From: Hahella chejuensis KCTC 2396
GTDB lineage: Bacteria; Pseudomonadota; Gammaproteobacteria; Pseudomonadales; Oleiphilaceae
Assembly (NCBI RefSeq): GCF_000012985.1
Contig: NC_007645.1
Coordinates: 372,001-436,000 of the forward strand
Length of the DNA stretch: 64,000 nucleotides
Direction: 5' to 3'
Shown here: one piece after another, positions 10,347 to 45,172 of the stretch
Position numbering within the stretch: the first letter of the stretch is position 1
How the letters are laid out: each line of letters begins with the position of its first letter
Position numbers and translations under genes: made by a program
The notes under the pieces: model-generated
What the model saw: the letters and a program-made list of their open reading frames with translations, nothing else
What the model was told of the DNA's origin: nothing
Databases searched by the model: none

Positions 10347-11141
10347 ATGAGCGGGAGTACTTCAGAGGCGCAGGTGCAGGCCGTTGGGGGCGCGTCGACG
10401 ATGAATAAAGCGTCTCCATCCGCCTGCAGTCCTTCCAGTAAAATCGCGTCAGAGAGCAGCAGCGACGAGGATCTTCTCAACCGTTCGTCTCTGGCGGATA
10501 CGCTCGCAAGCTTTCTGGCTGCGTCCGCAAACAATGATCATCAAACCATTGGTCTCATGGGAGATTGGGGCGTCGGCAAAACCTCGTTTATACAGCAGTT
10601 GAAAAAGACGCTGCGGGAAAAGCACGGTGACAAACAGCCCTTTATCTTCGGCGAATATAACGCCTGGAAATACGAACATACGGAAAGCCCGCAGGCAGGT
10701 CTGGCGCAAGAGACGATTAAAGCGCTGTCAGCGTTTCACGTCGCTGCAGGAAATGGCGGATCACCGTCCCTGAAACATAGTCAGGTAGGGAAGGCCGTGT
10801 TTTCCCTGGCTGCCATGCTTGTTCTCCTGCTCGGAGCGCTGCATTTGCTAAAAGGCTATGCCGGATTCAGCACCTGGGTGACGGATTTGACCGGCGACGG
10901 CATGCTGTCCTGGCTGATGTCCGCCAGCGTCATACTGGCGGCCTCTTCCATCCTGTATTTGCTGTATCTGGCCTATCACAATCGCCAAAAACTGCTGCTG
11001 ACATTCAAGTTCGGGTGGAAACTGAAGTCAGAGCGCATTTGTATCTTCGCCGCCGTATTGGGATTGCAGATCGTATTCTGGTGCATGCAATACACGGACG
11101 ACACTTCCGTGTATTTCGGGGTTTATGCTCTTATTTTGTGA
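10347..11141 (+). CDS. KAP-family P-loop NTPase, N-terminal fragment (gene split by prophage)
   Basis: The first 249 host codons of a KAP NTPase. Walker A is GDWGVGKT at residues 72-79, followed by the EYNAWKYE segment typical of KAP proteins. Three hydrophobic segments follow (about 145-165, 187-210, 230-246), as in KAP proteins where membrane helices sit between Walker A and B. The host gene stops being host at the 19-bp att core (11094-11112); the last residues (YFGVYALIL) and the stop are supplied by the prophage. Walker B is 33 kb away in the other fragment, so this product cannot hydrolyse NTP normally. KAP proteins include F-plasmid PifA, a T7-exclusion protein, and eukaryotic Kidins220. 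Confidence 0.9.
   Translation: MSGSTSEAQVQAVGGASTMNKASPSACSPSSKIASESSSDEDLLNRSSLADTLASFLAASANNDHQTIGLMGDWGVGKTSFIQQLKKTLREKHGDKQPFIFGEYNAWKYEHTESPQAGLAQETIKALSAFHVAAGNGGSPSLKHSQVGKAVFSLAAMLVLLLGALHLLKGYAGFSTWVTDLTGDGMLSWLMSASVILAASSILYLLYLAYHNRQKLLLTFKFGWKLKSERICIFAAVLGLQIVFWCMQYTDDTSVYFGVYALIL
11094..11112. other. attL: attL core
   Basis: The 19-bp sequence acggacgacacttccgtgt is repeated exactly at the other prophage end. Here the host-side base pair context extends it to a 21-bp site (11092-11112) with 7-bp inverted arms ACACGGA and TCCGTGT around CGACACT, the normal geometry of a tyrosine-recombinase core site with a 7-bp overlap. Confidence 0.9.
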
Positions 11142-11589
11142 TAATTTTAACTTTAAAAACAATGAGTTGTATTATTTAAAAAATAAGATTCGTGATATTG
11201 AGTGCAAAAGTGTCCACAAAGTGTCCATACAGATTGTAATTATGGGCACTGACCACCACCCTCCCTCAAAAAAGTCCGTGCATCTGCTTACTGGCAAAAT
11301 AGTTGGATAGTATCTTTCACAGGCTCGCAGGTACTAGGGACGGCAGCCTATCGCCTAATCATCCAATACCCGTTGACTAGCTTCAGTTCTTCTCAAACCC
11401 TTTCAAAATACGAAATCACGTGTTGATCGCTACTCCCTGTGGCGCGCGCTTTAGCCCGACTTTCTGATTTCACCACGGAAAAGATTCTGCAAAGCTCGCA
11501 GGCGTGGGGAGGAGTGAGTTTATCACTATTGAAGAGCCGTACCGTATTTCTAATCTACACTTTAATTTGAGCTATAGAAAAAGGCAGAA
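11142..11589. other. Prophage left-end non-coding region
   Basis: About 450 bp, AT-rich, between the truncated KAP fragment and the diguanylate cyclase gene. Apart from the integrase arm-type repeat no gene is supported; the open frame of 61 codons starting at 11125 has no ribosome site and overlaps the att region. Confidence 0.5.
11212..11227. repeat. Probable integrase arm-type site, attL side
   Basis: GTCCACAAAGTGTCCA, 118 bp inside the core. The same 16 bp occurs on the attR side at 43989-44004, 107 bp from that core. Each contains two close copies of a GTGTCCA-like unit. Paired arm repeats on both sides of the core are expected for HP1/P2 integrases. Confidence 0.65.
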
Positions 11590-12984
11590 ATGATGATGTC
11601 GCACAATATTACTGAGCTAGACTTAAAAAGGCTCCTTGAGCATGCTCATATTGGAGTCGTCATTCACCGGTGGGATACATCAATTGTTTACGCAAACCCG
11701 GCTGCATTACGCCTTCTCCGCTTATCGTATGAACAAATTATTGGCAAAGATGCATTTGATCCGCAGTGGGCCTTTCTAGATGATTCAGGGAAAAGTCTTC
11801 TAGTTGAAGATTATCCTGTTAATAAAGTGAAAAGGATGAAACATCATCTTTCAAATGAAGTTATAGGTGTGATTGATGGTTCAAAAGAAGACGTGAGCTG
11901 GTTTATGATTAATGCGTACCATGAAGGTGAAGCTGGCAGTGACGACTGTTTTATAATAGTTACATTTAGTGATGTTTCAGATTCTAAAAAATTATTTTCA
12001 TTTCAGGACATTGTTGAAAATACGCAAGATGTTGTAATTGTAACAGAGGCGGGAGAAATAGACTATCCAACAGGGCCTAAAATAGTATATGTAAATAAAG
12101 CATTTGAAACGTTAACGGGATACAAGCGCAAGGATGCTATAGGAGAAACGCCACGTATACTGCAAGGGGTGCTTACTGATAAGACGTCAAAAGGTCGAAT
12201 CCACTCTGCGCTAAAAAGCAATCAATCTGCCAGTGAAACTTTGTTGAATTATGATATAAAAGGTCGGCCGTACTGGATAGAAATGAATATTATTCCTTTG
12301 AAGAACAAATATGGTGATGTTACTCATTTTGCAGCTATCGAACGGGATGTTTCAGAGCGTAAGTTTCATATTGAACAACTAGAAAAAAGAAATAATGACT
12401 TAAAAATACTGAAAAGAGACCTGGAGAAGCTTGTTAAAGAGAGGACTATTGAGCTACAAAAGGCAAACGCTAAGCTTGAAAAAATGGCTTTTTTTGATCC
12501 GCTAACTAATATACCAAATAGACGTTATTTCATTGATCAAACTAATAAGTTGATGAAGTTTTGTAATAGAAGGGGATTGGTCTTCGCGCTTGGGCTTATT
12601 GATATAGATAACTTTAAGATATTGAATGACTCATATGGGCATGATGGTGGAGATATCGTTCTCAAGGAGCTAGCAAGGTATTTTTACGGTTTCTTCAGAT
12701 CGGATGATGCAATTTGTCGATATGGTGGAGAGGAATTCGCATTTGCGATGGCGCTCAATAATGAGTCTGATGCTGACAAGGTAACACTAAGGCTTTTAAT
12801 GGGAATTCGGGATTTAACAATACAAATTAATTCAGATGTTGTTTTGTCGATCACCACCAGCATAGGTGTAAAATTAGTTGATGCATCACATCACCTTGAT
12901 TTAAAGGATATAATAAATCAGGCTGATAGAGCACTATATCAATCAAAAAGAGAAGGAAAAAACAAGGTAACCATATATCAATAA
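11590..12984 (+). CDS. Diguanylate cyclase with two PAS domains (prophage cargo)
   Basis: A 464-residue cytoplasmic sensor enzyme. PAS 1 spans about 10-130 and PAS 2 about 138-258; a coiled coil (about 260-296, rich in E, K, L) leads into a GGDEF domain at about 297-464. The active-site motif GGEEF is at 379-383, the metal-binding Asp is in LIDIDNF, and an inhibitory I-site RSDD sits at 370-373, exactly five residues before GGEEF, so the cyclase should be active and feedback-controlled by c-di-GMP. PAS 2 has GETPRILQG where LOV domains have GRNCRFLQG, so it lacks the photoactive Cys. The gene is visibly AT-richer than the phage structural genes and lies at the phage end, as expected for a transferred lysogenic-conversion gene. 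Confidence 0.9.
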   Translation: MMMSHNITELDLKRLLEHAHIGVVIHRWDTSIVYANPAALRLLRLSYEQIIGKDAFDPQWAFLDDSGKSLLVEDYPVNKVKRMKHHLSNEVIGVIDGSKEDVSWFMINAYHEGEAGSDDCFIIVTFSDVSDSKKLFSFQDIVENTQDVVIVTEAGEIDYPTGPKIVYVNKAFETLTGYKRKDAIGETPRILQGVLTDKTSKGRIHSALKSNQSASETLLNYDIKGRPYWIEMNIIPLKNKYGDVTHFAAIERDVSERKFHIEQLEKRNNDLKILKRDLEKLVKERTIELQKANAKLEKMAFFDPLTNIPNRRYFIDQTNKLMKFCNRRGLVFALGLIDIDNFKILNDSYGHDGGDIVLKELARYFYGFFRSDDAICRYGGEEFAFAMALNNESDADKVTLRLLMGIRDLTIQINSDVVLSITTSIGVKLVDASHHLDLKDIINQADRALYQSKREGKNKVTIYQ

Positions 12985-13308: not shown

Positions 13309-13659
13309 CTACATGGGTTTGCTGATTGTCATGACTTGATGGAATGCCGCTTTCGTCATGGGTATGAATCGCCGTCGTAGTCCCCACTCCTGAACCACTC
13401 CGATCAGATCCGCAATCACCTGCAACACGTCCACGCCACCGCCGCCCATGGCCGGCGCATGGATCTTCCTGGCCGCGCTGGCGATGTCCGTGTGGCGTCC
13501 CTGAACGGTTATGGTTTTGTTGGCGTTGGTCTGCTTGTCGCTCTCTTTGATCGTTGCTGAACGCGAACCGCCCACCGTGGCGCTGTCGTCACCTTGGACT
13601 GACGCTTTCCGGTTCCGTGCGGCCGTCTGGTTAAGATTAGCGGCGGTGGTCGTGTTCAA
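13309..13659 (-). pseudogene. Decayed partial duplicate of the baseplate spike gene V
   Basis: The translation aligns with residues near the C-terminal half of the intact V protein encoded at 14106-15191: shared runs include QGDDSATVGGSRSATI, HTDIASAARKI and GGGGVDVLQVIADLIGVVQE. It lacks about 16 residues present in the intact copy between ARKI and APA, and after VVQE the frame differs although the DNA still resembles the intact gene (CTTGATGG near the end), which shows a frameshift. It has no start of its own and lacks the N-terminal OB-fold. It is a remnant of recombination or of cassette exchange at the spike locus. Confidence 0.85.
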
Positions 13660-13751
13660 AATAAGACACTATTCGCCATAATCCGCCCTAATAAAGGCCA
13701 TAATTGCAGTGTATAACATAAGAATGGTCCAGCACTGAAAGAGGTGTTGCA

Positions 13752-14078: not shown

Positions 14079-14105
14079 TAATCATGCGATTGATAGCTGA
14101 TATAA

Positions 14106-15191
14106 TCACGGCATAATGCTTGATATTTGGCCCTTTAACCCTTCTGCGCGGCTCGCCTGACTGCTATGGCTCCCACTGCTTGATGGCGTTCCGCTTCCTC
14201 CGTGTGTGTGACTCGCTGCTGTAGCCGCCAATTCTTGAACCACCCCGATCAGATCCGCAATCACCTGCAACACATCCACGCCCCCGCCGCCTATAGCGAT
14301 GGCCGGCGCTTGGATGGTCACGGCGGCGCTGGCTTTTAATTCGATGATTTGCGCCTGGATCTTCCTGGCGGCGCTGGCGATATCCGTATGGCTTCCCTTA
14401 ACGGTTATGGTTTTGCTGGCGCTGGTTTGCGTGTCGTTGCCGCTGATCGTTGCGGAGCGCGAGCCGCCCACGGTGGCGCTGTCGTCGCCTTGGATCGACG
14501 CGTGTCGGTCCCGTGCGACCGCCTGGTTAAGGTCGGCGGCGGTGGTCAGGTTTAGGTTATCCGCCGCAGACAGGTTGGCGTGGCCGCCGGTCAGCAGTTT
14601 TAACGCGCCCAGGGCTTCTACTGTCTTCACGCCGCCCACCTGTTCCACGCTATGTTCGCTGACCTCGATCTGGCTGTCTTGGTAGCGCTCCTGGTTGTCC
14701 AGGGCGTCCACGCGCCGGCGGGCGCTGGTGTCGGTTATATCCCCGTGCGTCTCGCGCAGCCAGTCGCCTTTGGCGCTCACACGCTGGCGCACCGCTTCGG
14801 ATTGCTGCCACACCAGGTCACCCGGCTGGACGCCAGGCGCGCCTAAACCCTGTCCCAACACCGTGCGGATAAAGGGCTGATCCGGCAGGCCGTAAGCGAA
14901 CGCCACCTCTACGATGGTCCCGGGTTCCGGGAAACCATACTGCCCGCGCTCGATGCCGCCATAGGACGCCGGCAACGGCAAGCAACGATAAAGGGGAAGT
15001 TCTGGGTCTTCCTCGCCCTGGGGCGACAGCACACGCACGTCTACGGCGTAGCGGGGGCGGAAGCGGTCGCAGAGTTCCGGCTTTTGCAGTGGGTCGCTGA
15101 TCGCCACCACCTTGGCCAGGCGCGGCAAATGCAGATTCCCGCTTAGCTCCGGGAACATTCGCAATACTATCTTTTTAATCTCTTCGTCCAC
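14106..15191 (-). CDS. V: Phage baseplate assembly protein V (tail spike)
   Basis: A 361-residue gpV-like spike. The N-terminal part has the OB-fold signature of phage baseplate V (ISDPLQKPELCDRFRPRYAV and the segment YGGIERGQYGFPEPGTIVEV). The middle and C-terminal part is a repetitive beta-helix (NLTTAADLNQ, DSATVGGSRSATI, KTITVKGSHTDI), and it ends with HTHGGSGTPSSSGSHSSQ, a His-rich tip segment like those that bind iron in spike apices. It closes the minus-strand tail operon. Its upstream neighbour, the hub gene, overlaps it by 25 bases. Confidence 0.9.
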   Translation of the reverse strand: MDEEIKKIVLRMFPELSGNLHLPRLAKVVAISDPLQKPELCDRFRPRYAVDVRVLSPQGEEDPELPLYRCLPLPASYGGIERGQYGFPEPGTIVEVAFAYGLPDQPFIRTVLGQGLGAPGVQPGDLVWQQSEAVRQRVSAKGDWLRETHGDITDTSARRRVDALDNQERYQDSQIEVSEHSVEQVGGVKTVEALGALKLLTGGHANLSAADNLNLTTAADLNQAVARDRHASIQGDDSATVGGSRSATISGNDTQTSASKTITVKGSHTDIASAARKIQAQIIELKASAAVTIQAPAIAIGGGGVDVLQVIADLIGVVQELAATAASHTHGGSGTPSSSGSHSSQASRAEGLKGQISSIMP

Positions 15192-29531: not shown

Positions 29532-30569
29532 TTAAGCCCAGTCGCCGGCGCCCGTGGGCAACTTCACGTTGGCGAACTCAAAGCCGGCGGCCTTGGTTTC
29601 GTCCTCGATCACATAGCCTTCGTTTAGGCTGTTGAAGTCTTCCACGCGGTTGCGTTTCGGGTTGTCGATCACCTGACGGCGCAGGCTGTCGGCCTGGTAG
29701 TAAAGGCTCAGGTTATCCAGGCTGGTGATCAGCAGGCCTCGGGCCGGGAAAAAGGGCGCGGTGATCGCAGGTAAACCGCCATAGGTGCGGATAATGGCCT
29801 GATTCTCCAGGCGCTCTTTTTCCGTTGGCTTGTGACCTTGCGCCGCGTACAGCTGCGCTTTGTCCTCCGCCAGCAGATCCCGCCCCATGATCACCACCAG
29901 GTCGCCGCCGTCGCGATGCAGTTCGTCCACCATCTGTAAGCAGGCGTGAACGGCGGCGTCCAGGTTGGCGAAGTCGCCGCCCTCGCCAATGCGGATCTGG
30001 CCGGCGGTCGCGCCTTCGACGAACCACTGCGAACCGGATTTAAATTCTCGTAGTTGCTGCAACCAGCCTTTGTTCACATCCTCGCCGTTGGGGTGGTCGC
30101 CAGGCTTAGTGGCGGGCAAGGCGCAACTGGTGCCCAGCCAGCCCACACGGAGCTTGGAAAGACTGATCGCCTTGCGCACCCATCCGCCGTAACGGGCTTG
30201 GAAGTCGGGAAACTTGGCCCAGGAATCGATGGTTTTGTATTTAATGTGGGTGTCGTATTCCACCGGGTGCAGCTCATAGCCTTTACTGCCCAGGGCCAGC
30301 ACGTCGCTGGTCTGGCGGTCGGCGCTGTCAGTGTCGGTGCGTTTGGGCACAAAGCCGGTCACGCTGCCGATCACCTTTTCCCCTTTCAGCTCGTCCACCG
30401 CCACCACGTTAATCAGCTGCAAGAACTCCGAACTTTCGGTGATCTTGTCCTGCAACTCCTGGGCGATAGTGGGCTCTACATTGAACTGCTCCGCGACGGA
30501 GCCTACGCCATAGGTGGCCGCCATGGCGGCGCACATGTCATTGAATAGTTGTTTCGTTTTAAAGTTCAT
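29532..30569 (-). CDS. N: Major capsid protein N
   Basis: A 345-residue P2-type capsid protein: the N-terminal LFNDMCAAMAATYGV, FLQLINVVAVDELKGEKV, DSWAKFPDFQARYG and GYVIEDETKAAGFE segments are the family's conserved blocks. Processing by the gpO protease at the N-terminus is known for P2. It is four bases from gene M. Confidence 0.93.
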   Translation of the reverse strand: MNFKTKQLFNDMCAAMAATYGVGSVAEQFNVEPTIAQELQDKITESSEFLQLINVVAVDELKGEKVIGSVTGFVPKRTDTDSADRQTSDVLALGSKGYELHPVEYDTHIKYKTIDSWAKFPDFQARYGGWVRKAISLSKLRVGWLGTSCALPATKPGDHPNGEDVNKGWLQQLREFKSGSQWFVEGATAGQIRIGEGGDFANLDAAVHACLQMVDELHRDGGDLVVIMGRDLLAEDKAQLYAAQGHKPTEKERLENQAIIRTYGGLPAITAPFFPARGLLITSLDNLSLYYQADSLRRQVIDNPKRNRVEDFNSLNEGYVIEDETKAAGFEFANVKLPTGAGDWA

Positions 30570-31569: not shown

Positions 31570-33315
31570 ATGTCATCACGTTACCCCCCTGAAATCATCG
31601 AAGCGGCGAAGGGCCTTTTTCTTCGCCATATCACGCCGGCGGAAATCCAGCAGCAGCTGGGGATTAATAACGTCCGCGTTATTTACCAGTGGATTGAACG
31701 GCACAACTGGAAAGACATGCTGCAACACGAAACCGTCGAGCAGGCCACCGCCCGCCGGTTAATTCATTTGGTGGAAAAAACCAATAAGGTGGCGGTCGAT
31801 TACCAGGAGATAGACCGGCTCAGTAACCTGTTGGATAAGCTGGCGGGCATTGATTTAAAGAAAGCCAAAACCGCCCGTGAGAAAGCGCAGTCGGAACACG
31901 GCGACGCGGGCGGCAACCGCAAGAAGAAAAAGCGTGGCGTGAAAAATGACGTGAGCGGGATTACCCCGGAGCGTCTGGAGACGATCCGCAAGGAATTGTT
32001 TTATGACTACCAGCACCGCTGGCACGATAACAAAAGCCAGCGCACGCGTTTTATTCTGAAGTCACGCCAGATCGGCGCGACCTATTACTTTGCCTGGGAG
32101 GCCTTCCAGGACGCCATCACGTCCGGCGATAACCAGATCTTTTTATCCGCCAGCCGCTCCCAGGCGGACATATTTAAAGCCTATATCCTCAAGTTCGCGC
32201 GCGAGTATTTCGACACGGAATTGAAAGGCGTGGACGTGATCCCGCTCAGCAACGGCGCGGAGTTACGCTTCGTCTCCACCAATGGCCGCACCGCCCAGGG
32301 TTACCACGGTCATTTATACATTGATGAAGTGTTCTGGATTCCCGACTTTGACCGGCTCAACAAGCTGGCCAGCGGCATGGCGGCGCATAAGAAATGGCGA
32401 AAAACCTATTTCTCTACGCCGTCGGTGAAAAGCCATGGCGCGTACACCTTGTGGAGCGGCGAGCGTTACAACGAGAGCCGCCGCCATAAGGTCGAGTTTG
32501 ATCTGTCGCGGGCGGCGTTACGGGAGGGCCAGCTGGGACCGGATAAGGTCTGGCGTAATGTGGTTACCGTTGAGGATGCCGCAAACCAGGGCTGCGATCT
32601 GTTCGACATAGACGAGCTGAAGCAGGAATACACGGAGGCGGAATTCAACAACCTGTTTATGTGCGCGTTCATGGAAGCGGGCCTCTCCGTGTTCAAGCTG
32701 GACGATTTGTTGAGCTGCGCGGTATGCAGCAGCGACGTCTGGCCCGACTTCAAGCCCAGGCAGCCGCGCCCGTTTGCAAACTATCCCGTGTGGTTAGGCT
32801 ACGATCCGGCGCGCACGGGGGACCGCTCCACCGTGGTGGTGGTAGCGCCGCCGATGCATCCCGCCGGCAAGTTCCGCGTGCTGGAAAAGATCCAGTTAAA
32901 AGGCGCGTTCAGCTACCAAGCCAACCGCATCAAGGATTTGCTGGGACGCTACAACGTGCAGTTTGTCGGCATCGACTGCACCGGCCCGGGCCTGGGCGTA
33001 TTTGAGCAGGTGAAAGCTTTTTACCCTCGCGCCACGCCCATTCACTACAGCCTGAACGCCAAAACCGCCCTGGTGTTGAAAGCCATGGACGTAATCGAAA
33101 ACGCCCGCATTGAATGGGATGCGGAACACACCGACATTCCCCAGGCGTTCCTCCAGGTGAAGCAGACCACCACGGGCAACGACCTGGTCACCTATGTGGC
33201 CGACCGCAGCAGCAAAACCGGCCACGCGGACGTGGCTTGGTCGATCATGCATGCGCTTAGCAACGAACCTTTGGACCGTAAGCAGCGTCGTGGCTCCATC
33301 GCCATGGCCGGATAA
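31570..33315 (+). CDS. P: Terminase large subunit P
   Basis: A 581-residue gpP. An N-terminal HTH region (AEIQQQLGINNVRVIYQWIER) precedes the ATPase domain with a non-classical Walker A (RFILKSRQIGATYYFA) and Walker B (HLYIDEVFWI), then the RNase-H-like nuclease with WLGYDPARTGDRS, GIDCTGPGLG and the final HADVAWSIMHAL. It packages DNA into the capsid. It leads the short plus-strand operon with portal and Ogr. Confidence 0.94.
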   Translation: MSSRYPPEIIEAAKGLFLRHITPAEIQQQLGINNVRVIYQWIERHNWKDMLQHETVEQATARRLIHLVEKTNKVAVDYQEIDRLSNLLDKLAGIDLKKAKTAREKAQSEHGDAGGNRKKKKRGVKNDVSGITPERLETIRKELFYDYQHRWHDNKSQRTRFILKSRQIGATYYFAWEAFQDAITSGDNQIFLSASRSQADIFKAYILKFAREYFDTELKGVDVIPLSNGAELRFVSTNGRTAQGYHGHLYIDEVFWIPDFDRLNKLASGMAAHKKWRKTYFSTPSVKSHGAYTLWSGERYNESRRHKVEFDLSRAALREGQLGPDKVWRNVVTVEDAANQGCDLFDIDELKQEYTEAEFNNLFMCAFMEAGLSVFKLDDLLSCAVCSSDVWPDFKPRQPRPFANYPVWLGYDPARTGDRSTVVVVAPPMHPAGKFRVLEKIQLKGAFSYQANRIKDLLGRYNVQFVGIDCTGPGLGVFEQVKAFYPRATPIHYSLNAKTALVLKAMDVIENARIEWDAEHTDIPQAFLQVKQTTTGNDLVTYVADRSSKTGHADVAWSIMHALSNEPLDRKQRRGSIAMAG

Positions 33316-33329: not shown

Positions 33330-34316
33330 ATGAGTAAATCGACTTCGCCCATGGCGTTTAGCTTTGGCGCGCCCGAGGCTGTTTTAGACACGACGCTGAC
33401 CTCTTACCTGGGCGTGTTTTTAAATCCCCATGGCGACTATTACGCGCCGCCGGTCAGTCTTACCGGGCTGGCCAAACTGCTGCGCGCCAACGCCCATCAC
33501 GGGACCATTCCCTATTTTAAGCGCAACATGCTGCGTAAGTTTTACGTGCCGTCGCCCGTGCTCAGCGCCACGGATCTGGAGAACGCCGGCTTCGATTACC
33601 TGGTGTTTGGCATGTGCTACTTTCAAAAGCTCTTTAACCGCCTTGGTCAGATCGTCCGCCTGAAACACATTCCGGCGTTGAATATGCGGCGCATGAAAGC
33701 CCCGGATCAGTTCTGTTTGTTGCAGCCAAACCAGGCGGACCCGTTGGCGTTTCGTCCGGGGGAAATCATTCAGTTAAAAGAGTACGACGTGAATCAGCAA
33801 ATCTATGGCGTTCCCCAGTACCTGGGCGGGCTACAATCCGTTTTACTGAATGAGAGCGCAACGCTATTTCGGAGGAAGTACTACAACAACGGCGCGCACA
33901 TGGGCTTCATCTTCTACACCGCCGACGCCCAGTTGGACCCCGAGGACGAGCAATCCCTAAAAGAACAAATCCGCGCCAGCAAAGGCGTGGGCAATTTTAG
34001 AAGCCTGTACATCAACATACCCGGCGGAAAACCCGACTCCGTGAAGATCATTCCCGTGGGCGATATCGCCACCAAGGACGAATTCGAGCGGGTAAAGAAT
34101 CTAAGCCGTAACGATGTATTAAGCATGTGGCGTATTCAGCCGGCGCTGGCCGGCATCATGCCGGAGAATACTGGAGGCTTTGGAGACATCGAAAAGATCA
34201 GCCGCGTTTACTATGAAAACGAAGTGGTCCCCATGCAGCATGTGTTTTTAAAACTTAATGATGGCCTACAGGCGCAGAAGCAAATCCGCTTCGTAGAGAT
34301 AATTAGCCCTAAATAG
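33330..34316 (+). CDS. Q: Portal protein Q
   Basis: A 328-residue P2-type portal protein: PPVSLTGLAKLLRANAHHG, YFQKLFNRLGQIVRLKHIPA, and GFGDIEKISRVYYENEVVPMQ are conserved. It starts 15 bases after terminase. Confidence 0.94.
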   Translation: MSKSTSPMAFSFGAPEAVLDTTLTSYLGVFLNPHGDYYAPPVSLTGLAKLLRANAHHGTIPYFKRNMLRKFYVPSPVLSATDLENAGFDYLVFGMCYFQKLFNRLGQIVRLKHIPALNMRRMKAPDQFCLLQPNQADPLAFRPGEIIQLKEYDVNQQIYGVPQYLGGLQSVLLNESATLFRRKYYNNGAHMGFIFYTADAQLDPEDEQSLKEQIRASKGVGNFRSLYINIPGGKPDSVKIIPVGDIATKDEFERVKNLSRNDVLSMWRIQPALAGIMPENTGGFGDIEKISRVYYENEVVPMQHVFLKLNDGLQAQKQIRFVEIISPK

Positions 34317-34380: not shown

Positions 34381-34644
34381 ATGCAAGTAAATTGTACCGA
34401 GTGTGGAAACAAAGCCATTATCACCAGCCGCCAAGCCTTGGACCCTAAGCTGGCGAACTTATACTGCGTCTGCAAAAACGCGGAGTGCGGACACAGCTTT
34501 GTCATGAATCTGGCGTTTAGCCATACGCTCAGCCCGTCGTCGTTTCAGGCTAAAAAAATGATGGTGGAAATGTTAAGGGGAATGGATCGGGCCGAACAGT
34601 TGGAACTGCTGGCCCAGGCTCGAAACGATATGAGTGTTATTTAG
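34381..34644 (+). CDS. ogr: Ogr/Delta-type zinc-finger late activator
   Basis: An 87-residue protein with the Ogr/Delta zinc finger: CTECGNKAIITSRQ, then YCVCKNAECGHSF (C-x2-C and C-x4-C). It activates late promoters with RNA polymerase alpha in P2. In P2 ogr lies after the tail genes; here it follows the portal gene, as in some HP1/K139 relatives. GAGGAAAG precedes the start. Its end overlaps the tail of the opposing 68-residue gene by eight bases. Confidence 0.9.
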   Translation: MQVNCTECGNKAIITSRQALDPKLANLYCVCKNAECGHSFVMNLAFSHTLSPSSFQAKKMMVEMLRGMDRAEQLELLAQARNDMSVI

Positions 34645-35979: not shown

Positions 35980-37346
35980 TTCGGCCTCATCTCACGCATT
36001 AACGCCATGAAGGATTCTTTATATCCTCCTGACTGTTTAATAACTTGAGTATTAAAATCCACGTTGCTCTTTGTCGGATGATAGTGTGGGTTAAGCACTG
36101 TACTTTTTGAGCTATTGGCAATGATGTTTCTTATTTTAGAGGCGCCAAACAAAACGCCGATGGCGGTAACAGTAACGGCGGCGGCGCCTCCAAAAGTTGA
36201 AATTATGGGAGCCCCCATTGCAATTGAGCCTATCTTAAAGCCCGTCCCAAAGGCGGAAGCAGTAAGTCCAAAGCCCCACGCGCCGTCTATTCGCGCCTGA
36301 ACACGAATTTTCTCCGCGACTTCTGCGGGAGCCCCTCCCCACTGCTCTAAAATGCCCGCTGTTTTAAATTGCTCAAGCATTTTAGACCTTACACAAGTCC
36401 AGTCGTCCGTTTGCGTCTTGGTGACGTCTTTCGCCAAAGACATTCCCCGCCTCTGCATTTCCAGCAGCAATGGATTTGCCGCCATTCCAGGCGCACCGAT
36501 AAATACAGTGTGTTTGTCTAATTGTAAATCAGGCGGCAGTTGTCGCAAGGCGGCCAGCATCAACTCCGAGCCGTTCCCGGTAATGGTCCAGTTAATCTCG
36601 CGTCCGATCTTTTGCGCCTTGTAAATCCCTTGAGCGAGCATAGTGGCTGTAAAGTTGGCGGATGTTTGCTTCTGCTCGGGAGTGGTCCATTCCGTGCCGC
36701 CCCGGTACAAAGGCGGCGGGTTATAAGCAATAGTGTAACCATTGCTTTCAAGGGTATCCGTGGAACCGGAATAGGCATCTTCAATAATGGGGGGCATTAT
36801 GTTTGTCGCCGCCTCTTTCAGATTGTCACAATGCCCATTAATAGCCGCATATTTATTAAGTAAGTGGTTTGACGGGGATGGGGACAAATGCCACTGATCC
36901 CTCCTATACCGCACATGGTAAAACCCCGGTTGATGTCCTTCCGCGTGTTCCACTAACTCAACGTCGGTTATGTACACCCCAGGAGAGAGCCCGCCGACGC
37001 TGTCTTGACGGATTACATAGCTGATACGCAGATTTTCCACCAAATCCACATGCTCAAAGGCGTTGCGCTTGTTGGAATAGGATTGAAAACCGCCTGCGCA
37101 TGATCTGAGGCGAGACAGGCGAGACAAGACAAGATTTTCCTTACCTCCCACTGTAAGCAGGTAGGCAAAGCGGCGACCGACTTCCCCGCCAGGAACATAA
37201 ATTTTTCTTCCCGACTCATTTCCTACGCCATCAAACATTAGCATGTAGCCAGAGGCCGCATTTCCATATGATCGTTTAAAGCCGTGGTTTATCAGGCTCG
37301 GTTGGCTCAAGCTTGTGCGAGTAAGTTCGGCGGCGGGCGCATTCAT
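35973..37346 (-). CDS. Unknown cassette protein A, possible hydrolase-like domain plus membrane hairpin
   Basis: A 457-residue protein preceded by AAGGAG. The N-terminal half (1-200) is a beta-rich region with no recognised motif. Residues about 235-310 read NFTATMLAQGIYKAQ, INWTITGNGSELMLAALRQL and HTVFIGAPGMAANPLL, which recall the nucleophile-elbow region of alpha/beta hydrolases; however, a clean G-x-S-x-G is absent. Residues about 360-415 are strongly hydrophobic (FGLTASAFGTGFKIGSIAMG and ISTFGGAAAVTVTAIGVLFG) and could form two membrane helices. No signal peptide. It is first gene of a two-gene operon in the phage accessory slot. It could be a superinfection-exclusion protein, a membrane toxin or a secreted effector. 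Confidence 0.6.
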   Translation of the reverse strand: MNAPAAELTRTSLSQPSLINHGFKRSYGNAASGYMLMFDGVGNESGRKIYVPGGEVGRRFAYLLTVGGKENLVLSRLSRLRSCAGGFQSYSNKRNAFEHVDLVENLRISYVIRQDSVGGLSPGVYITDVELVEHAEGHQPGFYHVRYRRDQWHLSPSPSNHLLNKYAAINGHCDNLKEAATNIMPPIIEDAYSGSTDTLESNGYTIAYNPPPLYRGGTEWTTPEQKQTSANFTATMLAQGIYKAQKIGREINWTITGNGSELMLAALRQLPPDLQLDKHTVFIGAPGMAANPLLLEMQRRGMSLAKDVTKTQTDDWTCVRSKMLEQFKTAGILEQWGGAPAEVAEKIRVQARIDGAWGFGLTASAFGTGFKIGSIAMGAPIISTFGGAAAVTVTAIGVLFGASKIRNIIANSSKSTVLNPHYHPTKSNVDFNTQVIKQSGGYKESFMALMREMRPKW

Positions 37347-38389: not shown

Positions 38390-38524
38390 TCACACTCGGG
38401 CTAACGCATGGGCGCGTAGCGGTGCCGACTTGTCGGCCTGGTGCGGGTTGTCAGGACTAATGCTTGTGCGGCTGACAGCGTCCCGGTCAAGTTCTGCTGT
38501 CAGTGCTCCTTTAAAGTCATTCAT
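38390..38524 (-). CDS. Small ORF translationally coupled to the upstream phage gene
   Basis: A 44-codon frame (MNDFKGALTAELDRDAVSRT...) whose ATG overlaps the stop of the 184-residue gene in an ATGA junction, with GAGGGG about a dozen bases upstream. The overlap and operon position make it credible, though short length and absence of a known family limit confidence. Confidence 0.45.
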   Translation of the reverse strand: MNDFKGALTAELDRDAVSRTSISPDNPHQADKSAPLRAHALARV

Positions 38525-39075
38525 ATCAGCAACCCCTCTATAACCGACTCGTAATAGCTATCCAGCACGCCTCCGGCCAGATCGCTTTGGCTACATACGC
38601 CATGGCTGGCGACAAGTAGCGTTCCCCAGACGGGCTTTAACAGGCTGGCCATGGTCGCCAGTAAAATCTGGTCGCGGCGCTTGGCGTTGAGCAATGCCGC
38701 ATTTAGCGCCGCCGGGGATCTCAAACCGATTTGCTCCAGACGGCTAACGCCCTTGTAGCGTTCTTTCATGGTTTGGATAGCAAAGGCGCTTTCCCCCAGC
38801 AGTTCGACGGCTTGGCTCCAGTAGAAGAAAAAAGCCGGGGTCGCCTGGGGAAGTTCGTGCGGCGCTCTGTAGTGGCGCTTGCCCAGGGTTTCGAGCACGG
38901 CGAGCCGGCCTTTTGTTTTCGCCTCATGCACCCAACAGCGCAGCGCCTGCCGCGAATTAAGGGTTTTCGACATGCCCGGCGCAATCGCCAGGCCGTTGCA
39001 GATCCCCGCCGCCCAGGTTTCCATTGGGCATAAGGGGGCCTCTAAAGTGGGCGCAATCGCCCCTTTATTCATCAT
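38521..39075 (-). CDS. Early phage protein, unknown
   Basis: A 184-residue protein preceded by AAGGAG. Helical, Ala/Leu-rich, with a central segment ATPAFFFYWSQAVELLGESAFA and no membrane-length hydrophobic helix. It follows the candidate replication origin and precedes small early genes and the exonuclease, so it is probably an early-operon gene. Family not recognised. Confidence 0.6.
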   Translation of the reverse strand: MMNKGAIAPTLEAPLCPMETWAAGICNGLAIAPGMSKTLNSRQALRCWVHEAKTKGRLAVLETLGKRHYRAPHELPQATPAFFFYWSQAVELLGESAFAIQTMKERYKGVSRLEQIGLRSPAALNAALLNAKRRDQILLATMASLLKPVWGTLLVASHGVCSQSDLAGGVLDSYYESVIEGLLI

Positions 39076-39140: not shown

Positions 39141-39473
39141 GGGGGGTGTCGGGAATTGGTAACTTTGGTAACCAAGTTCCGAAAAAGTAATTTAAACCTA
39201 TGTTTTTAAAGTGTTTTTCAGCCTCCGCGATTTGGTAACTAAAAGGTAACTAGAAGGTAACCTAAAAAGTTACCACGTTGATTTATAACGATTTTCCATT
39301 TTTGAAAAAGGGAACCTGCGAGTAACTTTTCAGAGCTTCAAAAGGTAACCTCGGTTACTAAAAAGTTACCTAAAAGTTACTTTTTTATTTTCTCTATAAG
39401 TCATTGTATTAATTAATAAATTCAGTACTTTTTTAATAGTGGTTACCAAAGTTACCAATTCCCGACACCCCCC
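39141..39473. other. Candidate phage replication origin: 34-bp perfect inverted repeats with GGTAAC iterons
   Basis: Left arm 39141-39174 and right arm 39440-39473 are exact reverse complements over 34 bases. Each arm contains two GGTAAC units nine bases apart. Between the arms are three more direct GGTAAC units at 11-base spacing (39234, 39245, 39256), one at 39344, and opposite-orientation GTTACC-type units at 39269, 39354, 39365 and 39376, set in AT-rich DNA. No ORF is present. The region lies 60 bp beyond the end of the primase-helicase gene. P4-type primase-helicases bind iterons at an origin built like this, so an origin is the best reading; a transcription-control region is an alternative. 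Confidence 0.6.
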
Positions 39474-39532: not shown

Positions 39533-42187
39533 TTAGCGCTTAAAAACCCAACAATGAATGGTCTTTCCGAGCAATTTGCTTTTCACTTTTCGGGTGTCGG
39601 AGTACTTGTAGCGCCGGCTATTCGGCAACAGCTTTTTCAACATCTTAAGGTCCAGGGATCGCTGGCCATGGTTGCGGCACATCTCATCAAAATGGTTCAG
39701 GTTGATAGCGATCCCGCCCGTTCCGACCAGGTGGTTAAGCATCTCCACCATAGCGCTTTGGTGGTACGCCTGCGGGTCCGGTTGCTGGTTCAAGTACTCG
39801 TATGAATCCCAGAACTCCGCCACCGCCGGATGGTCGTCCGCCAGGCGCTCCTGACGACTGAGAGCACGCCCATACAGATAATCGCTCAAACCACTGAAAA
39901 CGCTTTCATTAAGAGTTGGGAAGATATGCCGCAACGCTTTTGCAGCCGCCATTAACTGGGCGTGGTTTTTCACCAAACGCAGCAGGCTGGTTTTAATTTC
40001 CCCGCGGCTGGTGAAGACTTCCTCATAGTGATTAAACTCGTTGAAGAACGTGTTTAGGATCTGCGTTTCATTCTCCAGCGCCTTACGCAGAAAGCCCGCC
40101 ATCTGGTCGACGCCTTGCCGTTCGAACCACTGCGCCAGCTTTCGCGTGCCAGGTGTGTGGTGTTCCGTCGTACAGTGGCAATGGACAATCCGTTGCAGCA
40201 AGGGCGGCGATCCGTCCACCTCGGCATTTTGCGCAAACACCAAGCCGCCTAAAAAGAGCGGTTCTTCCGTGTCGTTGCCGCGCTTGGCGACGCCCAACGT
40301 TCCGACCGCGCGCCCGTTAAAGAAGGGTTTAAACTCGTCGAAATCAAACTGCTTCTTTTTCACGTCCGGCTCGTCGCCCCGGTCGGATTCGATCAACACC
40401 AGGGGCATATTAGAGCTTTGCGTAAATGCGCGCCGGCGTCCGGCGGCCGTTGACTTCATGGCGTCGAATCCTTCGTAGTCGTCGCGGCCCAAGAGTTTCC
40501 AAAGAAACTCAATCAGCGTGGATTTACCGGCGCCCGGATCGCCCGTCAGTTCAAGAAAGGGGAAGCTCTTGTGCTTCGCCCGGATCTGCTGAACGAACAA
40601 CGAGCCCAGCCAGAAGGCCAGCGCCGTTAATCCCTGCCAGGAAAAGGTCGTTATAAAGTTGTCGATCCACTCCGGGTTGAACTCCCCAGGCTGCACCCGA
40701 AAGCCCTTGAAGCTGGTTTTGATGCCGCTCCGCTCCAGTTCAAAATACCCCTCCGCATTCAGTTCCAGTTGTTTGCCTTTGCTGAAAGCAAAGGTCTGGT
40801 AGACGTAGGCTTGGCTGTCGGCGTGGTAACCCACATACGGAATGGATTGAATCTCTTTGACCTTACGGTTTAACCACTGCTCATGCAGCATGGCCATGTC
40901 TTTGGAGCTACCGGAAAACGCGCCATAGCCTTTGGTGATCATCGCCTTATGAAAGCTAGACGGCGTGTCGATGTTGCTCCCGTCCAACTGGATTAACGCA
41001 TCCGCGTTATTGCTGCTGTACTGCACCCGGAACACATAGAATTTTTCGTCCAGGATCTCGTCCCGCTCCGCATAAAGCAGTTCCGGCACAAAGTTACTGA
41101 TCGGGAAGGCTGTGCAGTGCTGGCTAAACGAGTCGTAGCCTTTACCTAGCGTCAATACTGCACCTTCCAGTGCTTCATATAGCTTAGTCACGTCCACTGA
41201 TACGGAATGCAGCCGGTTATCAAAGTCGATAACGAAGTGAGAATGGCTCTTCCACAAATAGTATGCGTACGCCTTCCACATCACGTTTTTCGCCGTGAAC
41301 ATTTTCCCCCGGTACTGCGCTTCCTCCAGAAACGTATTGTGGATCATGTCCAGGCGGTAAAGGTCGTCCCAGTCCTTGCTGGTCCCAGTTAGAGAGATCT
41401 CGACTTTTTCACCCGCCATCTGGAGCTTGGTGTAGTGGGATTTCATGCTCTTGCGGCCCGCTGCGTCATCATCCAACGCCAGCACCCAAGTGATTTTTTT
41501 CCCTAAATAGGGTTTTATCGCCTCGCTTGGGTAGTAGCCGGCGGCCAGGATCGCCACCGCCTTACGCTCGGAGAAGTGCAGCGCCAAGGCGTGGAAGATA
41601 CCTTCCACGATATAAACGCGATCACCTTGTTTAAGCTCCTGGGTCGGAGGCATCCACCACTTGCCCTTAACCGGATCAACCAACACCCATCGCCCATTGA
41701 CGTTATGGCGTTTGCCGCTGAAGTTGATGCGCTGGCCGTCGTCCTTCTGCTTGTCGATCAACCGTTCCCAATAAAGGGTCCGGTCGCTGTTCAGATAGAA
41801 ACGGACCGTATTACACCACTCCTGAGACTTGGGCAGCTTATAGCTGCCTTGCTCATACCAGCCCACCATTTCACTAAGAGGAAAGCGGCGATTGTGCGCC
41901 AGGTAGGCGTCCGCCGTGGCGTTCGGGTTTGCCTCCGTGGTGGGGAAGCGTTCGGAGTAGTTATTGAAAAGTTCCGGGTATATTTCCCGGGTTGTCTCGC
42001 TATAGCCGCAATGTTTTAGCCGGTTACAGCTGACGCGCCAGGGCTCTTTCATGCTGACGAAAAGCTCTTTCTTTCCGCAGTTTGGGCATTTGCCCTGCTG
42101 TAAGTATTCCCCTACACGCTTGAAAGCGAACTGGCCATCGCTGGCCAGCGCCTCCGCTATTTCGTTTCTGTTATCGAAAGTTTGCAT
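39533..42187 (-). CDS. Phage primase-helicase replication protein
   Basis: An 884-residue protein. Near the N-terminus a zinc finger has CPNCGKKELF and a second Cys pair (CNRLKHC). A Toprim domain follows with VYIVEGIFHALAL (catalytic Glu) and VLALDDDAAGRKS (DxD). The C-terminal half is a helicase-like ATPase with Walker A LTGDPGAGKSTLIEF. This combination makes primers and unwinds DNA, as in P4 alpha or T7 gp4, and replaces the rolling-circle nickase A of P2. The ATG at 42187 has TGGGG upstream; a GTG at 42205 overlapping the upstream stop is also possible. It is likely the trans-acting factor for the adjacent origin candidate. Confidence 0.85.
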   Translation of the reverse strand: MQTFDNRNEIAEALASDGQFAFKRVGEYLQQGKCPNCGKKELFVSMKEPWRVSCNRLKHCGYSETTREIYPELFNNYSERFPTTEANPNATADAYLAHNRRFPLSEMVGWYEQGSYKLPKSQEWCNTVRFYLNSDRTLYWERLIDKQKDDGQRINFSGKRHNVNGRWVLVDPVKGKWWMPPTQELKQGDRVYIVEGIFHALALHFSERKAVAILAAGYYPSEAIKPYLGKKITWVLALDDDAAGRKSMKSHYTKLQMAGEKVEISLTGTSKDWDDLYRLDMIHNTFLEEAQYRGKMFTAKNVMWKAYAYYLWKSHSHFVIDFDNRLHSVSVDVTKLYEALEGAVLTLGKGYDSFSQHCTAFPISNFVPELLYAERDEILDEKFYVFRVQYSSNNADALIQLDGSNIDTPSSFHKAMITKGYGAFSGSSKDMAMLHEQWLNRKVKEIQSIPYVGYHADSQAYVYQTFAFSKGKQLELNAEGYFELERSGIKTSFKGFRVQPGEFNPEWIDNFITTFSWQGLTALAFWLGSLFVQQIRAKHKSFPFLELTGDPGAGKSTLIEFLWKLLGRDDYEGFDAMKSTAAGRRRAFTQSSNMPLVLIESDRGDEPDVKKKQFDFDEFKPFFNGRAVGTLGVAKRGNDTEEPLFLGGLVFAQNAEVDGSPPLLQRIVHCHCTTEHHTPGTRKLAQWFERQGVDQMAGFLRKALENETQILNTFFNEFNHYEEVFTSRGEIKTSLLRLVKNHAQLMAAAKALRHIFPTLNESVFSGLSDYLYGRALSRQERLADDHPAVAEFWDSYEYLNQQPDPQAYHQSAMVEMLNHLVGTGGIAINLNHFDEMCRNHGQRSLDLKMLKKLLPNSRRYKYSDTRKVKSKLLGKTIHCWVFKR

Positions 42188-42201
42188 TGATCGCCCCAGA
42201 C

Positions 42202-42399
42202 TCACTTACGTTTTTCGCTTTCTTCGATGCACTCTTGCGCTAAACGAGCCACATTTATTAATACCAACCGCCCAATATGCCTAACGGGTAAATATCCTCT
42301 TGCGATTTGCCCTCTCACCTGGTCTTCGCGAAGTCCTGAGAGCTCAGCAAAAGCTCTTTTGGTCATGAGTGGAGAGGGGAATATGATTTTTTCTTTCAT
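42202..42399 (-). CDS. AlpA/Cox-like helix-turn-helix regulator
   Basis: A 65-residue protein with the AlpA/excisionase HTH: LMTKRAFAELSGLREDQVRGQ followed by GYLPVRHIGRLVLINV. In P2/HP1 phages the gene divergent from the repressor encodes Cox, which is both early repressor and excisionase. AAGGA precedes the start. It is first gene of the leftward early operon, overlapping the replication gene. Confidence 0.85.
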   Translation of the reverse strand: MKEKIIFPSPLMTKRAFAELSGLREDQVRGQIARGYLPVRHIGRLVLINVARLAQECIEESEKRK

Positions 42400-42659
42400 G
42401 CTAAATACATCCTTTATGCCTGTTTTGTGCTTGTATGTGCTTGCACCAGGGCATTATTTACCCTTCGCAATTGGTGTGTCAACGGAAATATGCCTTCAAT
42501 CAGGCATATAATGCCTGTTAATCGGCACATACGAGCACATACAGGCACGTATCAACACATTAGCTATTTTTATTTCATCCTTTTTGTTGCAATTTCTGCC
42601 CCCAAAAGTGTAAAAATGTGCCGATATGAGCACGTATTTGTCGTTACAGAGGGTAAGAA
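42400..42659. promoter_or_regulatory. Lysis-lysogeny switch: divergent early promoter and operator region
   Basis: The 260-bp gap between the Cox-like and repressor genes has four head-to-tail 10-base repeats (ATCGGCACAT ACGAGCACAT and two further units, 42521-42560), another pair in inverse orientation near 42427-42445, a single pair near 42618-42637, and a perfect palindrome CAGGCAT-ATA-ATGCCTG at 42501-42517. A possible repressor-operon promoter is TTGCAA (42587) with TAAAAA (42611). The helical phasing of the 10-base units is what Cox-type proteins use; the palindrome suits a dimeric repressor. Confidence 0.6.
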
Positions 42660-42977
42660 ATGAGACTTAAGGCTGGTGAAAGACTTAAAGCGCTTCGTGA
42701 ATTAGCGGGATTTACTCGACAAGAGTTTTCAAGCATCACAAATATCGAGCTTATCCGGTTGACGAATCTAGAAAAGCTAAGAGCTAGGGTCGCAGAAGAT
42801 GAATATGAAAAGCTTGGTTTGCTATTCCCTGAAGTAATTCCTTGGTTTGCGTACGAAGGTGACATTTCTCTAGAGGCATTAAGATCAAGTGAGCAGAAAC
42901 TTTGCCGCCTAATTGCAGCAAGGTTTGAAGCTGGACAGATTCCAGAAGGTTATTTTTTGGAGGAAAAATTTAAGTAA
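42660..42977 (+). CDS. Phage repressor (HTH/XRE-type, C-like)
   Basis: A 105-residue protein. The N-terminal LKAGERLKALRELAGFTRQEFSS is a HTH start with the second helix pattern of XRE proteins, followed by ELIRLTNLEKLRARV. It is about the size of the P2 C repressor (99 residues). It overlaps the integrase start in a TAATG junction, so repressor and integrase are co-expressed in the lysogen, as in P2. Confidence 0.8.
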   Translation: MRLKAGERLKALRELAGFTRQEFSSITNIELIRLTNLEKLRARVAEDEYEKLGLLFPEVIPWFAYEGDISLEALRSSEQKLCRLIAARFEAGQIPEGYFLEEKFK

Positions 42978-43987
42978 TGGCAGTGAAGAAAGTAGCCAAC
43001 GGGTGGAAAGTAGACATCCGACCAGAAGGGGTTTATGGGAAAAGAATAAGAAAAACTTTTCCAACCAAACGGCAAGCTGAACAGTGGCAGATAGACCAAA
43101 AGGCAAAGGCTAACGCTGGCGAGTGGAGCCCACCAAACAAAGACCGCCGCAAGCTCTCTGATTTAGTGAACACTTGGTATGACTTACATGGGCATACTTT
43201 AAAGGATTGCGATAATCGCTTGAGATCACTAACGGCCCTAGTGAATAGATTAGGAGACCCTATAGCAAAAAACTTCACTGGAGAAGACTTTCTTGAATAC
43301 CGAAGATTTAGACTGACACAAAAGCATGAGCACAGGGATAAGCTTGTGGAGCCAAATACTGTAAATCATGAGCATGCCTATCTCTTTGCTGTATTTAGCA
43401 AATTAATTAAGATTAAAAACTGGAAGCTTGATAATCCATTGAAAGGACTCTCAAAACTTACGATCGATGAGCCAGCACTTGTTTATCTGGAACAGGATGA
43501 AATAAGGGCATTGTTGGCATCCCTAAAGGAGTCAAAAAACCCTAATGTGTTAGTGATTTCAAAGATATGTTTGTCTACAGGCGCGCGGTGGGGTGAAGCT
43601 GAATCACTTCAGGCTCAACAAGTGAAACAAGGCAAAATCCACTTTATTAAAACTAAAAACAGTAAGTCCCGAGCTGTACCCATTTCAGACGAGCTTTCAA
43701 AAGAAATAATAGCAGGGCGTCCTAGATTTGGCCGACTGTTCCCGGGTACATCAAAACAAGCCTTTCGCCTTGCAGTAGAGCGCTCAGGCATCAACTTACC
43801 CGATGGTCAAATGACCCACGTACTCAGACATACGTTTGCTAGCCACTACATGATCAATGATGGAAACATTCTAAAGTTAAAAGATATCCTCGGGCACAAA
43901 ACACTATCTATGACTATCCGTTACGCTAAGCTCGCTCCAAAACATTTGGCAGATGCAGTAACTCGAAACCCTTTAGCCACGCTGTAG
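42977..43987 (+). CDS. int: Tyrosine-recombinase integrase (HP1-type)
   Basis: A 336-residue integrase, the length of HP1 integrase. Catalytic residues are Arg204 (STGARWGEA), Lys near 227-230 (KTKNSKSR), His281 and Arg284 (HVLRHTF), His307 (LGHKT) and Tyr316 (IRYAKLA). The N-terminal 60 residues form the arm-binding domain (KTFPTKRQAEQWQIDQKAKA), and the middle is the core-binding domain. It lies 109 bases from the attR core. Confidence 0.95.
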   Translation: MAVKKVANGWKVDIRPEGVYGKRIRKTFPTKRQAEQWQIDQKAKANAGEWSPPNKDRRKLSDLVNTWYDLHGHTLKDCDNRLRSLTALVNRLGDPIAKNFTGEDFLEYRRFRLTQKHEHRDKLVEPNTVNHEHAYLFAVFSKLIKIKNWKLDNPLKGLSKLTIDEPALVYLEQDEIRALLASLKESKNPNVLVISKICLSTGARWGEAESLQAQQVKQGKIHFIKTKNSKSRAVPISDELSKEIIAGRPRFGRLFPGTSKQAFRLAVERSGINLPDGQMTHVLRHTFASHYMINDGNILKLKDILGHKTLSMTIRYAKLAPKHLADAVTRNPLATL

Positions 43988-43988
43988 A

Positions 43989-44004
43989 GTCCACAAAGTG
44001 TCCA
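43989..44004. repeat. Probable integrase arm-type site, attR side
   Basis: The same GTCCACAAAGTGTCCA as at 11212-11227, same orientation, beginning just after the integrase stop and 107 bp from the core. See the attL-side entry for the reasoning. Confidence 0.65.
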
Positions 44005-44062
44005 CCCAAAGGAGTTAGTACGTGCATAAATGAGATCGTGACGAGCGAAAAATCAATAGTTT

Positions 44063-45172
44063 ATGTCAGTACGTGCCGGTACTAGCAGCCTCAGGACGGA
44101 CGACACTTCCGTGTTTTCCTCAGGGCTCGGCAAAATCGCCGCGCATATTCCCGCATTGCTGCTGGCGGGCTCATACAAGTATTTCCAGACGGTTTGGGCG
44201 AGCCCCATGGCGCCGGAACTTAACACTTATCTGCGCCTGCCCACCTATGGCCATTATCTGGGAACCGCTCCTGTCATGCACAATCATCTGCAATCGCTCT
44301 GCGAGTTGCGGCTGAATCCGAAAAAAGGACCGCAAAGCCGCTTTCTGCTGGTTGTGGAGGATTTGGATCGCTGCAGTTATGAAAACATCGTCAAAACCTT
44401 TGAGACCCTGCGCCTGGTGATGAATATTCCCCGCGTCACCGTGATTATCGCCATCAATCAGCAAATCGCCCTGACGGCGCTGGCGATGCACTACGAAAAG
44501 CTGGCGCCGCAACACAAATGGCAGAATCCGCAAGCGATTGCGCGGGACTATCTGGCGAAAGTCATGCATGCGCCCATTACCCTCAGTGAGCCGGACGCCG
44601 CCGCCGTGACCCGCTATTTGGGAAGTGTTTGCGGCGCCCAGGCGGACCAGCGACAGGAAACGCCCCACATGGCGATCCATAAATTGCTGCCCGATTCCCC
44701 GGCTCGTGCGAATGAGGAAGGCATGTCTCCCCAGCAAAAACAAGCGTTTTACTACTGGCTGGAGCATTTCGAGCTAAGCAATCCCAGGCAAATAAAGCGG
44801 TTGTATAACGGTTATAACCTGTTGCGCGCCTGTCTGCGGGAAGACTGGTTGCAGACGGAGGAGGAAGCGCCTGGTCTCAGCGATAAGCGCAGACCTCTCG
44901 CCTATCCCATGATGGTTGCGTTGTTTGCGATGGAATACGCCAACGATCGTCCTGACCAGCTTGGTGAGAAGGGGCTGCATAACTGGAAAAAGTTCCTGCG
45001 CGGCGAGCGGGGCAAGCCGCTGGAGGACGGCGATAGCCTGGGGCGTATCGACCATGAGGTTCTGGCGATCCTTAAAGAGCCTGTGTGGGAAGACAAGTTA
45101 ACACCGGCGATCAAGGCGTTTGTGCTGCCCGCTATTGAAACTGAGGAGATTAAGCCAGTGCTGAAAGGCTGA
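44063..45172 (+). CDS. KAP-family P-loop NTPase, C-terminal fragment (gene split by prophage)
   Basis: The last 358 codons of the KAP gene, beginning at the att core. The first 11 codons of the open frame (MSVRAGTSSLR) are phage DNA and lack a ribosome site. Walker B is in FLLVVEDLDRC, with DLDRC at residues 100-104 of this frame, corresponding to about 338 of the rebuilt 607-residue protein. VTVIIAINQQIALTALAMHY (sensor-like strand and helix) and FELSNPRQIKRLYNGYNLLR are further conserved KAP elements. On its own it lacks the Walker A motif. Confidence 0.9.
   Translation: MSVRAGTSSLRTDDTSVFSSGLGKIAAHIPALLLAGSYKYFQTVWASPMAPELNTYLRLPTYGHYLGTAPVMHNHLQSLCELRLNPKKGPQSRFLLVVEDLDRCSYENIVKTFETLRLVMNIPRVTVIIAINQQIALTALAMHYEKLAPQHKWQNPQAIARDYLAKVMHAPITLSEPDAAAVTRYLGSVCGAQADQRQETPHMAIHKLLPDSPARANEEGMSPQQKQAFYYWLEHFELSNPRQIKRLYNGYNLLRACLREDWLQTEEEAPGLSDKRRPLAYPMMVALFAMEYANDRPDQLGEKGLHNWKKFLRGERGKPLEDGDSLGRIDHEVLAILKEPVWEDKLTPAIKAFVLPAIETEEIKPVLKG
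44096..44114. other. attR: attR core
   Basis: Exact copy of the 19-bp attL core. The left 7-bp arm here (GGACGGA, phage-derived) is degenerate compared with ACACGGA on the host side, while the right arm TCCGTGT is kept. The reading frame of the KAP gene passes through it (T-D-D-T-S-V). Confidence 0.9.

Follow-up and report, generated by a model that had tools for sequence, protein, structure and literature searches.

Does the P2-like prophage in this part of the Hahella chejuensis KCTC 2396 genome interrupt the coding sequence of a KAP-family NTPase gene, and if so, how did it come to use that site and what has become of the gene? We examined a stretch of 64,000 nucleotides (contig NC_007645.1, positions 372,001 to 436,000; hereafter the window), for which a first-pass annotation had proposed that a 19-bp repeat lies in the KAP reading frame on both sides of the phage, and that removal of the phage restores a single frame. 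The features that bear on this are the following, in window coordinates.

10347..11141, + strand: 5′ part of the KAP NTPase gene, with Walker A and three predicted membrane segments; the stop lies in phage DNA just past the core (Pfam, orthologue alignment, hydropathy, motifs)
11094..11112, + strand: attL core, 19 bp, with inverted arms flanking the 7-bp spacer CGACACT
11113..44095, no strand assigned: P2-like prophage (PHROGs and Pfam)
44096..44114, + strand: attR core, 19 bp
44096..45172, + strand: 3′ part of the KAP NTPase gene, with Walker B and the C-terminal half (Pfam profile positions 149-290)

The window has exactly two copies of the 19-mer ACGGACGACACTTCCGTGT, at 11094-11112 and 44096-44114, and both lie in the KAP frame from codon 250 onward, as had been proposed. 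Twelve 19-mers are repeated in the window; apart from this one, they form an overlapping set of 11 within a single pair of duplicated phage segments, and a search of the whole 7,215,267-bp genome for the 18-base core, allowing up to 2 mismatches, recovered only these two sites. The proposed restoration of the frame was likewise reproduced in silico: when the flanks are joined at the repeat, removing the prophage and one 19-bp copy (33,002 bp, or 33.0 kb), they form a stop-free frame of 607 codons with GDWGVGKT at residues 72-79 (Walker A) and DLDRC at 338-342. The Pfam KAP_NTPase profile matches the two pieces separately, with profile positions 1-79 on the left piece and 149-290 on the right. 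Residues 1-255 of the left piece align with intact orthologues, after which the frame adds just a few phage-encoded residues before its stop; the right piece is 92% identical to the orthologue of Hahella sp. HN01, and an open frame that begins at 44063, on an ATG supplied by the phage, continues into it.

We then compared the locus with related genomes, because the annotation had suggested searching there for uninterrupted 607-residue orthologues. The joined KAP protein, searched against 146 related genomes (E up to 0.001), had matches in 11 of them, host included; three were full-length, and the remaining seven outside the host covered short stretches only, at 26-38% identity. The full-length orthologues (G001, G004 and G005) all belong to the host's genus, are colinear, stop-free and 607 residues long, and share 87-88% identity with the joined protein, so that an intact gene is present in three of the six other genomes of the genus examined; the other three (G002, G003 and G006) had no KAP match at the same threshold. 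The G004 locus and the HN01 locus are one and the same, and it was also the only relative encoded among 15 pattern-matching stretches in a search of genome contigs with the KAP protein. When the window without the phage was compared with these three genomes, approximately 17.8-20 kb around the site proved colinear with a phage-free arrangement in each: G001 aligned in a single stretch at 90.5% identity and HN01 (G004) in one at 90.7%, with a further piece of 58 bases. G005 aligned in three successive segments at 86-90%; the two small breaks between them lie one to the left and one to the right of KAP. The intact orthologues carry the core at the same codons as the host, a further expectation that was upheld; all 19 bases are identical in G005, and a single base is changed in G004 and in G001, both of which keep the 7-bp spacer. 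Separately, a dispersed repeat of about 70 bp (window about 46523-46594) has roughly 20-40 matches in each of the host (G000), G001, G004 and G005, with no more than 40 candidates scored, and the right-hand colinearity break in G005 coincides with it.

The repeat, the reading frame and the phage-free loci of the congeners together place attB within the KAP coding sequence, and confirm that a P2-like prophage splits a KAP gene that is whole in close relatives. There is practically no chance that the repeat is a coincidence or the arrangement an assembly artefact without any insertion, given a phage-free arrangement in three congeners with the core the same or one base different, and a host genome that is a single contig. 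The suggested search for other prophages at the same site drew a blank in viral contigs, among which the 18-base KAP core had no exact match and a search with the KAP protein returned three stretches that fit the pattern, none of them confirmed as a relative.

The description of the element as a P2-type prophage agrees with its gene content according to PHROGs and Pfam. Its main genes are listed here.

11590..12984, + strand: PAS-PAS-GGDEF diguanylate cyclase gene, cargo adjoining attL, 37% G+C
29532..30569, − strand: major capsid protein, P2 type (phrog_70)
31570..33315, + strand: terminase large subunit (phrog_3746 and others)
33330..34316, + strand: portal protein (phrog_68)
34381..34644, + strand: Ogr/Delta-like transcription activator (PF04606, phrog_603)
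39533..42205, − strand: DNA primase/replication protein (phrog_1139)
42660..42977, + strand: transcriptional regulator, candidate repressor, a role suggested by its position (phrog_147)
42977..43987, + strand: tyrosine integrase, 336 aa (PF00589, PF24624)

Portal, large and small terminase, scaffold, P2-type major capsid, sheath, tape measure, baseplate, tail fibre, primase, Ogr-type activator, regulator and integrase were all recognised, including a contractile tail, and this set is that of P2. The integrase frame is full length, stops 108 bp short of the attR core, and contains GARW at residue 202, HVLR at 281, GH at 306 and RYAKL at 315, motifs that in this family hold the catalytic R, H-x-x-R, H and Y of a tyrosine recombinase. 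Among 20 prophage frames scanned with PHROGs, none was recognised as a Cox protein or excisionase. The PAS-PAS-GGDEF gene differs from the rest of the element in its composition (37% G+C vs 55% in the prophage); its GGEEF motif is intact, and the protein has partial matches in 109 phage records, none covering more than 80% of its length. Several other observations concern the phage DNA itself. A perfect 34-bp inverted repeat lies ahead of the primase gene (39141-39174 and 39440-39473, 265 bp apart), and a second prophage of the same genome, treated below, has comparable arms of 31 bases set almost equally far apart. Two segments (13383-13656 and 14228-14552) are duplicated at 84-89% identity, one copy in the frame 13309-13659, which has a weak baseplate match, and the other in the baseplate gene 14106-15191. 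Three proteins encoded in 35179-37346 and 38521-39075 (266, 457 and 184 residues) went unmatched by Pfam, PHROGs and NCBIfam under the limits applied, and positions 8000-49000 gave no Rfam match at gathering thresholds.

The interrupted gene encodes a clear member of the KAP family. The intact orthologue scores 116.8 bits against KAP_NTPase (PF07693; cut-off 20), and between its Walker A and Walker B motifs hydropathy predicts three strong membrane segments, at residues 150-168, 190-208 and 231-249, with the att site directly after the third. Of 369 genomes from the class, 5 have homologues (E up to 1e-8), host included, which makes the gene rare. Phage-exclusion ATPases belong to the KAP family, and it could thus be asked whether this protein is a defence ATPase whose disruption disables a phage-exclusion gene to the phage's gain. 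PADLOC gave partial matches to the QatA, PDC-S20 and PifA models and a weak one to PDC-S49, which speak for such a role. We did not assign the protein to QatA, PifA or PDC-S20, however, as the partial matches are spread over several KAP families and the NCBIfam QatA equivalog model reached 75.4 bits against a cut-off of 600. Moreover, the four host ORFs scanned beside the site (at 7489, 8549, 45248 and 46598) had no PADLOC match, and hence no adjacent QatB, QatC or QatD, and the locus is colinear in all four Hahella genomes that have the gene, the host and three congeners, rather than lying in a variable island. On this balance we consider a defence role turned to the phage's benefit unlikely; if KAP does exclude phages, the insertion would amount to a phage disabling host defence through its choice of site. 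Among the matches listed for literature on KAP P-loop proteins, PifA and membrane, none was about KAP as judged by title.

What the insertion means for the gene can be judged in part from its substitution pattern. In Nei-Gojobori counts from four sequences, given here as values without error bars, dN is 0.041 and dS 0.308 on the host's terminal branch (dN/dS 0.132), and the branches of the three intact genes have dN/dS of 0.102, 0.104 and 0.142. Residues 1-249 evolve faster on every branch (dN/dS 0.184 in the host, 0.130-0.254 elsewhere) and residues 257-607 more slowly (0.088 in the host vs 0.037-0.089). Relaxed selection following the interruption was looked for and not seen, the host value falling within the range of the intact branches. 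From the undecayed state of the gene we therefore infer either recent integration or continued restoration, and these sequence comparisons fit a recent insertion and repeated restoration equally. NTPase function is very likely lost in the lysogen, because the predicted Walker A and Walker B motifs are on separate polypeptides. The alternative that a functional protein is formed from the two pieces in the lysogen, or a functional right half translated from the ATG at 44063, would draw on the in-frame phage ATG just before attR and on the few phage residues that the left piece gains; we regard it as very improbable, since by eye no ribosome-binding sequence is evident before 44063, the Walker motifs are separated and the break falls after a membrane segment. 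A different proposal is active lysogeny, with the prophage as a reversible switch that restores the NTPase in some cells or conditions, as SPbeta does for spsM. The frame-exact core, the intact integrase motifs and the lack of decay in either half of KAP are all compatible with a switch of this kind, but recent integration explains the undecayed gene equally well and a single lysogen was found, and so we hold active lysogeny to be rather doubtful.

The shape of the core bears on how the phage came to use this site. The core has inverted arms around a spacer that fits the 6-8 bp range of an overlap, and it adjoins the integrase gene; around the 7-base spacer CGACACT the number of paired arm bases is 7 in attB, 10 in attL, 5 in attP and 5 in attR, and we infer that this spacer is the overlap for strand exchange. 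Of the approximately 64,000 window positions, 5 show inverted arms of at least 7 bases flanking a 7-base loop, attL among them. The attB inverted repeat resembles a tRNA anticodon arm in shape. Sites of related prophages are similar in part. The prophage of G105 shares DNA similarity with ours along the element, has an integrase 65% identical, and carries GGA/TCC adjoining a 7-bp spacer; unlike ours, it targets tRNA-Phe and has a 49-bp repeat, which starts at the anticodon arm GGGA-CTGAAAA-TCCC. Contig L063 terminates in a near-identical 3′ part of tRNA-Phe in which the first C of the loop is replaced by T, and the left junction of the second prophage reads GGGA-CTCGGAA-TCAG, where ARAGORN called no tRNA. 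The KAP attB, the G105 site and the second-prophage site have in common GGA-C, five bases, A or T, and TC. Judged from this small set of sites, the KAP site may be a look-alike of an anticodon arm.

The second prophage is also P2-like and lies at about 6867447-6901216 of the host contig (G000:C1; loci L052-L054). Through much of the structural region its DNA is about 90% identical to that of the first, in an alignment that stops short of the PAS-PAS-GGDEF gene, and its integrase is 69% identical, but it has a 15-bp core at another site, with no tRNA called there. In G004 the alignment of its joined flanks runs through the att site and stops exactly there, so that this comparison yielded no phage-free form of the site, and the att may be a hot spot; a 173-codon open frame spans the joined site and has no support as a gene. 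Within this prophage ARAGORN called a tRNA-Tyr with the unusual anticodon ata (L052 11714-11789), a call that is probably false. In the excerpted part of one published table, the row for H. chejuensis KCTC 2396 gives the number 8 together with phage proteins, without positions (PMC2075365).

To place these sites in the wider family, we surveyed the neighbourhoods of related integrases. Of 293 genomes of the order, 39 had matches (E up to 1e-30), host included, and 57 of the 59 matches listed are outside the host; the loci examined came from the best matches of 29 genomes and make up 29 of the 57, with approximately 1.5 kb on each side and less at contig ends. A tRNA or tmRNA gene lies downstream of the integrase in 18 of the 29 loci and on the other side in none, and the G105 locus (L021), judged by its repeat, is a nineteenth tRNA-site locus. 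Among 39 integrase loci on viral contigs, a set that includes near-identical contigs, a complete tRNA gene follows the integrase in 10, the sequence stops within 750 bp of it in 14, and in the other 15 it continues for over 1 kb with no tRNA called. At one of these loci, the second prophage (L062), a doubtful tRNA call falls on the upstream side of the integrase. The expectation that relatives often use other sites, tRNA genes among them, thus holds for the 18 of 29 loci in the order; a general rule that relatives use tRNAs is borne out only in part, with a whole tRNA downstream in only 10 of 39 on the viral contigs. We conclude that tRNA sites are frequent in this integrase family but far from universal, since 15 of the 39 viral-contig loci continue beyond 1 kb without a called tRNA, and that non-tRNA sites are not rare.

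A FastTree phylogeny of 69 integrases (68 loci and that of the window) placed the window integrase in a clade of six (support 0.993) together with L060, L061, L021, L063 and the second prophage, and its pairing with L060 within this clade has a support of only 0.538. L060 has a tRNA-Met gene approximately 110 bp downstream of its integrase, L061 is followed after approximately 70 bp by the start of a frame with GST_N and GST_C domains, and the L021 and L063 integrases are at tRNA-Phe, so that three of the five closest relatives use or adjoin a tRNA gene. We give the L060 and L061 sites as integrase neighbours because no left att partner was found in the contig ends read; a 10-base match in L060 was judged to be chance. 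Given an anticodon-arm-like core and tRNA genes at or beside three of the five closest integrases, the KAP site looks like a target switch in an integrase lineage that often uses tRNAs. The six integrases are close and their sites differ (two at tRNA-Phe, one next to tRNA-Met, one next to a glutathione S-transferase gene, one at a 15-bp site with no tRNA called, and one in the KAP gene), which makes them a useful set for learning how integrase specificity changes.

Taken together, we are highly confident that a P2-like temperate phage used its own tyrosine integrase to insert at the 19-bp core in a resident gene for a membrane KAP NTPase. In the mechanism we propose, the integrase would recombine the phage with the anticodon-arm-like core in the KAP coding sequence, with strand exchange presumably over the 7-bp spacer; in the resulting lysogen the parting of Walker A from Walker B would abolish the NTPase, and exact excision would restore the gene. 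A more far-reaching version, in which an integrase lineage of tRNA arms moved to the KAP repeat such that lysogeny disables and excision returns a defence, forming a heritable and reversible immunity switch, seems to us decidedly unlikely. The integration itself is well supported as a natural interruption of an uncharacterised membrane KAP NTPase, and the whole gene in close relatives is available for comparison.

The first-pass annotation had considered a KAP gene notable as an attB, and this stands as far as the choice of gene is concerned: among the matches listed for the open-licence literature, as excerpted, no described case has a prophage with a KAP or defence gene as its attB. The use of a coding gene as attB is, by contrast, well known, and three systems offer comparisons within the excerpts of the reports cited. 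In Bacillus subtilis, the SPbeta prophage splits spsM, and its excision during sporulation restores the gene (PMC4191935); the KAP case likewise has a prophage splitting a coding gene whose frame is restored by exact removal, here in silico, whereas the excision reported for SPbeta is tied to sporulation and involves another phage and another gene. The phiSa3int prophages of Staphylococcus aureus insert into hlb and inactivate it (PMC6597384), and they resemble our prophage in occupying a coding gene; they are described in most isolates, as opposed to the one case here, and again phage and gene are different. The dusA-associated integrases also have a protein-coding target, but theirs is the 5′ end of dusA, in more than 200 bacteria (PMC4482086), while the site described here is in the middle of KAP and known from one case. 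Against this background of coding-gene attB sites, the split KAP gene clearly adds a new case, in which the gene targeted is an unusual one.
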